A DNA stretch of 41,191 bases from Candidatus Pacearchaeota archaeon (GTDB lineage Archaea > Nanobdellota > Nanobdellia > Pacearchaeales > GW2011-AR1): NCBI GenBank assembly GCA_018304105.1, contig JAGVWX010000016.1, positions 1-41,191 on the forward strand. Reading direction: 5' to 3'. The translations under genes were made by a program, and so were the position numbers. This document shows positions 17,387 to 40,193 of this stretch, one piece after another. The first letter of the stretch is position 1; every line of letters starts with the position of its first letter. The notes beneath the pieces were generated by a model. The model did not search any database. It had not been told where the DNA came from and saw only the letters and a program-made list of their open reading frames with translations.

Positions 17387-18103
17387 TTAGACGTGGTTGT
17401 AGAACTTTCTAAGCATCTTAATTTTGTTTATGTTTAAATTTGAGAAAATTATGCCTTCTTTATTCTGAATTTTATTCAAAATTTTCAATGGACTGCAGAT
17501 ATAACTTTCAGAAAGCACCTCATCAGTAAAAGCATCGCAACTCACAAAATAAGCTAGATTTTCAAAAGCCCTCGTAAGAGGATAGCTTCTAAATACTCCT
17601 TTACTGATTTTTGCATTATTTAATAAATATGACGGACAAAATATTATTTGTGCACCGCTTTCTGAAAGTTTTCTAATATTTTCTGGAAAAGCAAAATCCC
17701 AGCAGATAATAATTCCAATTTTCCCGAAATCTGTTTCAATGACTCTATTGTTTTTTCCAGAAGTTGTTTGTTTTAAATCAAGGTCAGGAAACAGGTTAAT
17801 TTTTTTGTAAACATACTGGATTTTGCCTAATCTATTAACCAAAATTGCAGAATTGAAAATTTTGTTATTTTCTTTTATATGAGCACCAAAGATGCAGTAA
17901 ATTGATTTCTTTTTGCATTTTTCTTGAATAGCCTTAATTTCTTGGCAATTAATATTTAGAAAGTCTTCGCCTAAACATGATTCGGGAAAACAGACTAAAT
18001 CAGCATTCTTTGTAGAAGCCTTATCTATAAAATTCAGAACTTTCCTCAAATTTTTGTTTAGTTCGTCAAAAATTTCAATTTGGGCAACAGCAATTTTTGG
18101 CAT
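17387..18103 (-). CDS. Nitrilase-superfamily carbon-nitrogen hydrolase
   Basis: A 238-aa protein from ATG 18103, chosen over a GTG at 18124 because an ATATTTAAG box lies about 27 bp above it. The catalytic Glu-Lys-Cys triad is present: Glu41 in CFPES, Lys101 in YKKINLF and Cys134 in IICWDFAFPE. Superfamily members hydrolyse amides or nitriles or transfer acyl groups; the substrate is unknown. The C-terminal part after about 190 is short for the family. It is AT-rich and isolated between two structured intergenic regions. Confidence 0.85.
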   Translation of the reverse strand: MPKIAVAQIEIFDELNKNLRKVLNFIDKASTKNADLVCFPESCLGEDFLNINCQEIKAIQEKCKKKSIYCIFGAHIKENNKIFNSAILVNRLGKIQYVYKKINLFPDLDLKQTTSGKNNRVIETDFGKIGIIICWDFAFPENIRKLSESGAQIIFCPSYLLNNAKISKGVFRSYPLTRAFENLAYFVSCDAFTDEVLSESYICSPLKILNKIQNKEGIIFSNLNINKIKMLRKFYNHV

Positions 18104-37759: not shown

Positions 37760-38653
37760 ATGGAAAAGATCACCCTCACATTTTTAGGAACAGGAAACGC
37801 AGTGCCAACTCCAAAACGCAATCACACAGCCATGCTTCTCACTTACAAAAATGAAAACATTCTCATTGATTGCGGCGAAGGCACACAGCGCCAATTCAAA
37901 ATAGCAAATCTCTCAGCCAATAAAATCACAAAACTGTTAATTACGCATTTGCACGGCGACCACGTTCTAGGCATTCCCGGATTGTTCCAAACTCTCGCAA
38001 TGAACGACTATCAAAAGGTCCTAGAAATTTACGGCCCAAGAGGAACCGAGCGTTTTATCTCATCGTTAGAACAGCTCTTTCATATCAAAATAAAAACCCA
38101 AGTAAAAGAAATCTTCAGCAAATTCTTCGAAAGCGATGACTTCTACCTCGAAGCCGCGCCAATGAAACACGATACCCCTTGCCTTGCTTATTCTTTCGTA
38201 ATAAAAGACAAATACCGATTGGACAAATCTGCATTAAAAAAACTAAAGCTACCAAACTCTCTGCTATTGAAAAAACTCCAAGTCGGCGAGGACATTACTT
38301 TCGAAGGCAAGAAAATCAAAGCGAAAGATGTTTCCTATCTAGAAAAAGGAAGAAAAATTACTTTCATTCTTGACACCGCATTCAACGAAGGCGCAATCGA
38401 GCTAGCAAGAGGTTCGGACATTTTAGTCTGTGAGTCATCATTTTCAAACGAAGAGTCTCAATTAGCAAGCGAAAGAATGCACCTAACCGCCGAACAAGCC
38501 GCGACAATTGCAAAGAAAGCCAATGTAAGGCAATTAATCCTCACTCACATCTCTCAGCGTTATGAACACAATCCAAGAATCATCCTCGAAGAAGCCAAGA
38601 AGGTTTTCAAGAACACGACGCTTGCAAAGGATTTCGATGTTATTAATTTCTGA
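37760..38653 (+). CDS. rnz: Ribonuclease Z
   Basis: A 297-aa metallo-beta-lactamase-fold tRNA 3' endonuclease. The zinc motif HLHGDH (63-68), the start FLGTGNAVPTPKRNH, the DCGEGTQRQF stretch, ILDTAFNEGA, ESSFSNEE and LTHISQRY are in family order. It trims pre-tRNA 3' trailers, needed here since CCA is not encoded. A CTATTTAAATC box (about 37729-37739) lies 25 bp above the ATG. The last 99 bp exist a second time as a diverged in-frame copy beyond the adjacent VapBC genes. Confidence 0.95.
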   Translation: MEKITLTFLGTGNAVPTPKRNHTAMLLTYKNENILIDCGEGTQRQFKIANLSANKITKLLITHLHGDHVLGIPGLFQTLAMNDYQKVLEIYGPRGTERFISSLEQLFHIKIKTQVKEIFSKFFESDDFYLEAAPMKHDTPCLAYSFVIKDKYRLDKSALKKLKLPNSLLLKKLQVGEDITFEGKKIKAKDVSYLEKGRKITFILDTAFNEGAIELARGSDILVCESSFSNEESQLASERMHLTAEQAATIAKKANVRQLILTHISQRYEHNPRIILEEAKKVFKNTTLAKDFDVINF

Positions 38654-38693
38654 TAGAAAAGTTTAAATAACAATTAGACATTAAAGTTATACA

Positions 38694-38921
38694 ATGACAA
38701 TAGAAGTTAGGCTGAAGAAATGGGGAAATTCAATCGGCATAGTCATACCTAACGAAACAATTGAAAGACTATCGCTTAAACCAGAAGAACAAATAGTTAT
38801 CGAAATCAGCAAAAAGGAAAATGTATTAAAAGAAATGTTTGGAAAAGCAAGATTTAAGAAATCAGCACGGAAGGTAATTGATGATTTTAGAAAAGACTCT
38901 GAAAGCAAATGGTTGAAATAA
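38694..38921 (+). CDS. vapB: VapB-family antitoxin (AbrB-type), second pair
   Basis: A 75-aa protein with N-terminal AbrB hairpin (IEVRLKKWGNSIGIVIPNETIERL) and a helical toxin-binding tail. It is clearly paralogous to the antitoxin at 18796-19011. A TTTAAATAAC box (38664-38673) lies 20-30 bp above the ATG. It overlaps vapC by 13 bp. The pair is set between the RNase Z gene and a displaced fragment of that gene. Confidence 0.9.
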   Translation: MTIEVRLKKWGNSIGIVIPNETIERLSLKPEEQIVIEISKKENVLKEMFGKARFKKSARKVIDDFRKDSESKWLK

Positions 38922-39283
38922 AAAAATGCCTCGACACATATGCCCTTGTAGAAATATTTCTTGGAAATAAGAAGTTTACAGATTACCTGCACAAAGAATT
39001 TATCATCAACGATTTAACGCTTGCGGAATTTTATGGCGTTCTCTTGAGAGAAGAAGACGAGAAGGTTGCTCACTATTGGTTTAAAAAATTAGAAAGATAT
39101 TCCCAACCAGCAGATATTGACACTTTGATTGAATCAGTCAAATTCCGACAAGCGCACAAAAAAACAAACATTTCGTTCTTCGACGCTGTCGGCTATATTT
39201 TCTCAATAAAAAACGGTTGTTACTTCGTGACAGGCGACAAAGAATTTGAAGATTTCGATTTCGTTGAATTCAAGAAGAAATAA
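38909..39283 (+). CDS. vapC: VapC-family PIN-domain toxin, second pair
   Basis: A 124-aa PIN-domain ribonuclease with acidic ligands Asp9 (CLDTYAL), Glu40 (TLAEFYG), Asp92 (SFFDAVGY) and Asp110 (VTGDKEF). It is paralogous to the toxin at 18431 (shared LDTYA, GD-K-FE near the end, VEF end). Stable inheritance through toxin-antitoxin addiction could hold the inserted cassette in place. Confidence 0.9.
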   Translation: MVEIKKCLDTYALVEIFLGNKKFTDYLHKEFIINDLTLAEFYGVLLREEDEKVAHYWFKKLERYSQPADIDTLIESVKFRQAHKKTNISFFDAVGYIFSIKNGCYFVTGDKEFEDFDFVEFKKK

Positions 39284-39302
39284 AGCAAAACTAATTTAAC
39301 AC

Positions 39303-39401
39303 CAGCGTTATGAACACGCTCCAAGAATCATTCTCGAAGAAGCCAAAAAGGTTTTCAAGAACACGACGCTGGCGAGAGATTTTGATACGATAGAATTCTG
39401 A
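39303..39401 (+). pseudogene. Displaced 3' end of an RNase Z allele
   Basis: These 99 bp align without gaps to the last 99 bp of the intact RNase Z gene (38555-38653) and keep the reading frame and stop. The fragment reads QRYEHAPRIILEEAKK, VFKNTTLARDFDTIEF against QRYEHNPRIILEEAKK, VFKNTTLAKDFDVINF. About half of the changed codons are synonymous, so it diverged under selection as a working allele and was not a simple local duplication. Confidence 0.85.
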
Positions 39402-39439
39402 ATAAAACGCGGGTGAGATAACAAAAGGCGGGGCGGAGA

Positions 39440-39548
39440 AGCGAGCAGAGCGAGCTTCAACAAACAAGACGCCCGCAGGCGCCCAATTGAAGAAATTAAA
39501 AGAAAGCGTTTTATTCGAACGAAAGATTTCGATGTTGTTGAGTTCTAA
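39440..39548 (+). other. Family A hairpin followed by a third short gene-end fragment
   Basis: A hairpin module (AAGACGCC...GGCGCCCAATTG, about 39466-39488) is followed by 39521-39548, which reads KDFDVVEF and a stop, like the end of RNase Z (KDFDVINF) and also like the end of the VapC genes (DFDFVEF). Which gene it came from cannot be decided from so few bases. Confidence 0.4.
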
Positions 39549-39953: not shown

Positions 39954-40193
39954 CTACTTGTTTGATGCAGGCGAAATGTAGATAATCGTGTCGCCTCGCA
40001 AAAAGGTCAAGCCTATGTTCTTCTTAACTTCGCCGCTTTCGATTTCCTTTGCGTTGTCCAATGCAACATTTATATGCATATCGAACGCAAGCAAAGTTCC
40101 GACAAACTGCTTGTCACCTTTCAGCTGAATCAACACGTCTTTTCCCTTCGACTGATTCAACAGATCAAGTGGTCGCTCAATTCCGTTAACCAT
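39954..40193 (-). CDS. Archaeal Sm-like protein (LSm)
   Basis: A protein of 79 aa from ATG 40193; a TTG-started frame adds four residues, but an ATTTAAATAC box about 24 bp above 40193 supports the ATG. The Sm1 motif (VLIQLKGDKQFVGTLLAFDMHINVALDNA in parts) and Sm2 motif (LTFLRGDTIIYISP, with RG(D) for RNA contact) are complete. It forms heptameric rings binding U-rich RNA and tRNA precursors in archaea. Length is standard. Confidence 0.95.
   Translation of the reverse strand: MVNGIERPLDLLNQSKGKDVLIQLKGDKQFVGTLLAFDMHINVALDNAKEIESGEVKKNIGLTFLRGDTIIYISPASNK

Follow-up and report, generated by a model that had tools for sequence, protein, structure and literature searches.

The RNase Z locus and its displaced ends

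The window, that is, the whole stretch of 41,191 nucleotides analysed here, is one contig (C13) of a 1.06-Mb Candidatus Pacearchaeota assembly that comprises 23 contigs and is about 89% complete. Its closest named relatives are two Pacearchaeota MAGs, UBA73 (G003), whose RNase Z is 86% identical, and JAHIWJ010000081 (G008; 85%). Outside the window, genes were called by a simple script as ORFs of at least 70 aa, so their boundaries are approximate. The region around RNase Z is organised as follows.

37760..38653, plus strand: RNase Z (tRNase Z, metallo-beta-lactamase fold), intact, 297 aa; PF12706, PF00753 and PF13691 above cut-off
38555..38653, plus strand: tail A, the attached last 99 bp of RNase Z; 4/68 and then 11/31 differences from tail B
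38654..38693, plus strand: short cassette leader, putative promoter with the archaeal TATA-like sequence TTTAAATA, as read from the sequence
38694..38921, plus strand: VapB-type antitoxin, AbrB/MazE-like, 75 aa; PF04014, E 5e-5
38909..39283, plus strand: VapC, predicted toxin with a PIN domain, 124 aa; PF01850
39303..39401, plus strand: tail B, a displaced RNase Z end, probably the native one, found by sequence alignment
39402..39519, no strand: remnant of 118 bp between tails B and C, delimited on the sequence
39520..39548, plus strand: tail C, an older displaced RNase Z end; E 2e-4 to the tails of UBA73 and G001
39954..40193, minus strand: Sm-like (LSM) gene; PF01423

Orthologues of RNase Z are present in 52 of 56 relatives, and the LSM gene, located downstream in many of them, is its usual convergent neighbour. 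Here, vapB begins 40 bp beyond the RNase Z stop, overlaps vapC at 38909-38921 with the antitoxin gene upstream, and vapC is followed after 19 bp by tail B. VapC scores 30.6 bits against PF01850 (cut-off 23.6), as expected for the PIN domain of a type II VapBC toxin, and carries, by eye, the acidic residues of the PIN site; VapB falls just below the cut-off for PF04014 (AbrB/MazE; 23.5 versus 24.7 bits). The leader may function as a promoter, and a similar sequence, TAGAAAGGTTTATAAATA, stands after the PolX stop in G042. No transposase or IS ORF of the kind that marks an insertion sequence or composite transposon lies between RNase Z and the LSM gene, and the insert holds vapBC alone, with no integrase inside.

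The earlier note had drawn attention to the resemblance between 39303-39401 and the end of RNase Z (38555-38653), and the alignment bears this out: it is gap-free, 84 of the 99 nucleotides are identical, the frame is the same and both copies end in TGA. Chance does not account for a match of this strength (E 1e-24 against a small database), the strongest stop-anchored downstream tail copy among the 1230 called genes. The preponderance of third-position changes was also seen again (3/3/9 by codon position); the excess, 9 of 15 against an expected one third, has a binomial probability of about 0.03 by our own arithmetic and is real but modest for the RNase Z pair alone. The dN/dS ratio, which it had been proposed to compute, is about 0.19 (NG86). 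Tail A is a mosaic with respect to tail B, since 11 of the 15 differences fall in the last 31 bp (4/68 versus 11/31; Fisher 0.0004, for a split picked after the data had been seen); the longest-run test gives a P of 0.17 for this pair.

Tail C reads AAA GAT TTC GAT GTT GTT GAG TTC TAA, that is, KDFDVVEF and a stop, a peptide identical to the RNase Z ends of G001, G002 and UBA73. Its presence beyond tail B means that the RNase Z end has been displaced twice and that the site holds three successive ends, A, B and C. The 118-bp remnant that separates B from C is a possible leftover of an earlier cassette; in G008, a MazEF-like pair follows RNase Z at the equivalent place. The remnant is bounded by an 11-bp inverted repeat, GAATAAAACGC/GCGTTTTATTC (39400-39410 and 39506-39516). 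A multicopy element or terminal repeat was considered as the cause and rejected, as the genome contains five occurrences of GAATAAAACGC, including the two at this site, without element structure. No second tail was found beside RNase Z in G001-G006, G008 or G009.

It had been argued from the codon-position pattern that one of the two RNase Z ends came from a foreign allele. The body of the gene differs from that of UBA73 at 113 of 265 third positions (43%) and 60 of 530 first and second positions (11%). Tail A behaves like this body (15/33 and 9/66, respectively), while tail B is nearer to UBA73 at silent positions and farther at the others (9/33 and 13/66). The same holds with respect to G008, from which A and B differ at 16 and 11 third positions and at 9 and 13 first or second positions, respectively. 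In addition, the 20-mer TAGAATTCTGAATAAAACGC, made up of the last bases of tail B and the 9 bp past its stop, is common to the RNase Z of G008, and the last 31 bp of tail A are nearest to G001 (7 differences, versus 12 for B). On these small numbers, the sequences are most simply read as a native end in decay for B and an imported end for A, the last 31 bp of which are probably the imported allele. The part of the argument that did not stand is that the two copies should have separate closest relatives: A and B are mutual nearest neighbours in a tree of 96-bp tails, although with weak support for the split (53%). Equal spreading of substitutions over codon positions, which together with mutual closeness would have spoken against a foreign allele, is not seen. 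Since A and B are nearest neighbours, any donor must have been a close lineage, and the imported end looks to have come from a near, unsampled one.

The attached tail had further been expected to group with relatives that carry VapBC. This found no counterpart: when 200 genomes of the order were searched at the DNA level, none gave a second RNase Z-VapBC linkage (0/200). The nearest relatives of the VapBC pair, at 66-73% DNA identity, are located beside unrelated genes, such as a histone gene in G009 and a CobA-like gene in G004, and most of them have no flanking repeats. This indicates that the cassette moves between places and that an RNase Z-linked donor is unsampled.

Displaced ends at other genes

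For each of the 1230 called genes, the 3 kb downstream were scanned for stop-anchored copies of the gene's tail. The scan gave 13 matches at a score of at least 13, versus 1 in shuffled pairs, and the families of the cargo between the copies were checked by Pfam. Copies of gene starts upstream were rarer (5 versus 13 at the same score); they are real in some relatives.

The pattern is seen at unrelated genes and with unrelated cargo. A Holliday-nuclease-like gene, Endonuc_Holl (C16:82654-83073), is followed by an inverted VapBC and then by an 82-bp tail with differences 3/3/10; this is the only pair with significant longest-run clustering away from the identical block (P 0.006). A secretion-type ATPase gene (C8:19583-21856) is followed by a ParE-type pair and a tail of about 26 bp, and the aIF5B gene (C21:2981-4720) by VapBC and a tail of about 33 bp, the latter pair being without synonymous bias. 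The cargo is decayed or absent at an ABC ATPase gene (C5:7289), at C6:57206, at EF-2, at LeuS and at C15:4265 of the same genome; at C5:7289 and C6:57206, what follows the displaced tail is the same sequence as downstream in UBA73, so the displaced end is the native one there. In UBA73, a flippase gene is followed by HEPN/MNT and a 70-bp tail (differences 3/1/9), and an NYN gene lies between the tails of an AP_endonuc_2-like gene. In two genomes of other families, VapBC follows PolX (G042) and a dockerin gene (G021), and the displaced tail begins 2 bp past vapC in the former and at the vapC stop in the latter; G001 carries a displaced EF-2 tail. At the toxin-bearing loci, the cassette begins 0-50 bp past the gene stop and the displaced tail 0-45 bp past the module. 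In the best-aligned tail pairs, blocks of 18-26 bp are identical. Ends duplicated at different loci are unrelated to each other, and no common recombination site sequence was recognised by eye among them.

Several matches were set aside: C18:33686 (N gap, probably an assembly artefact), rps12 at C22:103675 and C5:4421 (frame breaks), C22:117839 (split gene), C14:16226, C14:30152 and C12:62406 (tandem paralogues) and C17:106460 (tandem repeat). Compared with UBA73, rps12 (C22:103675-103956) lacks 17 bp, which apparently breaks its frame; this is either an assembly error or real. At C17:106340-106500, a 35-bp unit beginning TGATTCATTCAGATTCCTATGGACTATAA is repeated in tandem; the repeats start inside the end of an 89-aa gene and continue directly beyond it. 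A CRISPR-like array with the repeat GTTTCATATTCAGAACAAAGGGATTAAGGAATGCAAC lies at C12:43600-44000 (L209) of UBA73.

At some sites the cassettes are stacked. Downstream of a dockerin gene (C9:12526-13284), six displaced tails lie at 17895, 18848, 20301, 21162, 22759 and 23657, and the whole array (loci L052 and L095) spans C9:12526-23716. Most of its cassettes are toxin modules; the cargo comprises RHH/PIN, ParE-like plus PIN_2, an unassigned pair, two PIN modules and a BrnT-like/DUF2283 pair. Adjacent tails encode almost the same peptide (pS 0.49, pN 0.048). In C3:3308-5899 (L046), AbiE-type and HicAB modules separate copies of the start of a 132-aa gene, which is repeated three times; the repeated edge can thus be a gene start as well. 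In C17:35225-39168 (L106), a mostly non-coding 66-bp repeat beginning AACTCTCCCCTAAACCCTTAATC occurs four times between cassettes that carry PIN-like, protease-like and DUF433/DUF5615 genes, its first copy overlapping the end of a methyltransferase gene. Gene ends are not the sole sites, since in two relatives (L271, G004:C9; L278, G005:C47) the diverged copies on either side of VapBC are those of a promoter and gene start.

The association of repeats with toxin genes is significant. In the order, 11 of 59 PIN loci have flanking direct repeats with a score of at least 20; with swapped flanks, the expectation is 0.36. Such repeats flank 5 of the 16 PIN-overlapping ORFs in this genome, as against 47 of 1002 other genes (P 8e-4), the latter being genes of up to 400 aa, several of whose 47 flanked members sit in the same arrays. 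Among 29 PIN loci sampled across the phylum, strong flank repeats were present at 4, where 0.0 were expected, and most of these repeats were not clear gene ends.

Divergence of the tails and rival explanations

Nine coding tail pairs were pooled, giving a pS of 0.50, a pN of 0.10 and codon-position counts of 16/14/52. The pairs were not picked for synonymous change, selection by similarity score could have a small effect, and the aIF5B pair was retained despite being opposite in direction. This pattern was compared with a simulated null that began from two identical copies, the displaced one evolving neutrally and the attached one under constraint. In six settings, the synonymous fraction was 0.35-0.43, versus 0.58 observed (P from 0 to 0.001). 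The pooled set thus rejects a duplication whose displaced copy then decayed neutrally (P<=0.001); RNase Z alone does not. The pooled tails differ in the way functional alleles do. That an end was imported is partly supported at RNase Z, by the closeness of B to the relatives at third positions and by the dN/dS of about 0.19; for the whole class it is well supported, by the allele-like divergence at many other loci.

These observations bear first on the alternative that resembles a known process most closely. Restriction-modification genes have been described to insert with long, variable target duplications of about 100 bp (Nobusato et al. 2000, Gene 259:99-108; Furuta et al. 2010; PMC1643837, PMC3874152, PMC3031569). 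If the cassette duplicated 20-100 bp at the edge of a gene, the two copies would be identical at the start and the displaced one would drift. As in the portions of those descriptions consulted, we find addiction-type genes without a recognised mobile element or transposase and variable repeats of around 100 bp that are single copy at an empty site, the 99-bp flank being single copy in the relatives compared above. The sister relationship of A and B, with extra non-synonymous changes in B, also fits, and the short, almost adjacent EF-2 and LeuS copies could be simple duplications. Taken by itself, RNase Z is explained nearly as well by a copy made at insertion that then decayed as by an imported end. 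Identity at insertion is what the pooled tails contradict, being too synonymous in their divergence for neutral drift. Likewise, the peptide of the six dockerin tails is nearly constant with half of the synonymous sites changed, and the displaced RNase Z-like copies all retain frame and stop. The present case also differs from the restriction-modification genes, as far as the consulted descriptions of the latter go, in that it concerns archaeal toxin-antitoxin pairs whose repeats are functional gene ends with a stop, diverged as alleles and stacked in arrays. We regard such target duplication as a somewhat unlikely explanation of the whole.

A second possibility is the decay of a site-specific integrative element, whose integrase would have used the gene end and of which the toxin-antitoxin pair alone remains. 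The e14 element in E. coli icd is of this type: it brings a replacement 3' end that differs largely silently from the displaced one, and elements of this kind carry an integrase and a defined core. The logic by which a replacement 3' end keeps the gene intact is the same here, and the identical blocks of the best-aligned pairs could be cores. The integrase and the core are both missing at our locus: the assembly contains one tyrosine recombinase gene (PF00589, C22), away from the insert, and the duplicated ends have no site sequence in common. Separately eroded islands are also unlikely to have left such tight packing at several independent loci, which makes this explanation improbable. Finally, a local tandem duplication by slippage or a mis-joining of contigs, followed by the chance insertion of toxin-antitoxin genes, could apply to the N-gapped C18:33686 and to the very short LeuS and EF-2 copies, but it is highly implausible in general, given that the copies are diverged, lie inside contigs and recur in independent assemblies (UBA73, G042, G021, G001), and that the association with toxin genes is significant.

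Unrelated duplicated ends, together with a small and tight unit without integrase, fit homologous recombination better than a site-specific enzyme. The account that we propose, to which we give about an even chance, is that toxin-antitoxin cassettes insert by homology, without an integrase, and bring a replacement gene end with them. A minimal promoter-vapB-vapC cassette of about 0.63 kb would have come behind RNase Z with a 3' end from a related lineage. Recombination would have occurred in the conserved tail, most simply by one crossover between the resident tail and the tail on a circular or repeat-flanked donor, with no need for an integrase or transposase. The product of such a single crossover would be gene, new tail, cassette, old tail; the new tail would complete a working RNase Z, the resident one would be pushed downstream, where it decays, and repetition of the process would build arrays. 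An earlier event of the same kind may have left tail C. The first tail-cassette-tail unit could itself have originated by insertion with a long target duplication. Close direct repeats should recombine and expel what lies between them; an addictive toxin would select against this loss, which could explain why toxin genes are so frequent among the cargo. That the toxin-antitoxin pair would stabilise the replacement, as put forward in the earlier note, is plausible.

In the UBA73 orthologue of the Endonuc_Holl gene (L130), a remnant of the vapC 3' end lies directly past the stop and the tail is B-like, without a displaced copy. Either the same site was struck in two species, or the insert was inherited and eroded. 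Recombination between tails, as proposed here, gives no simple explanation of a VapC remnant without a displaced tail.

Known cassette systems and significance

Integron cassette arrays are often rich in toxin-antitoxin cassettes. The arrays described here resemble them in the serial arrangement of small cassettes at one site with a recurring sequence between them. They differ in that this sequence is the end of the upstream gene and varies by locus; no IntI-like integrase was found, there being no second tyrosine recombinase in the assembly, and the repeated ends are unrelated between loci. The stabilisation of superintegrons has been discussed in a source consulted in part (PMC2654758), which also describes chromosomal toxin-antitoxin islets without mobile elements, e.g. 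ccdO157. There too, a toxin-antitoxin pair alone forms an islet between core genes; a displaced, diverged end of the flanking gene does not figure in the part of that description consulted (PMC2654758). Nor did the literature searched, with its partial coverage, yield a description of displaced, diverged gene ends associated with toxin-antitoxin cassettes.

More tentatively, and with some doubt, one may envisage an integrase-free cassette system in Pacearchaeota in which gene ends serve as recombination sites: circles carrying a gene end would integrate, swap the end and stack, and the displaced tails would record the alleles.

It is an open question by what route toxin-antitoxin modules come to occupy regular chromosomal positions when no mobile element is involved. 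The recurrence of the pattern at many genes suggests that these selfish pairs arrive with a replacement end. The scars would be datable, as each insertion leaves behind the former end of a core gene, from which donor, recipient and order of events may be read in the sequence. Selfish modules would then carry the 3' ends of core genes such as RNase Z and aIF5B along with them from one lineage to another, in genomes that are regarded as streamlined.
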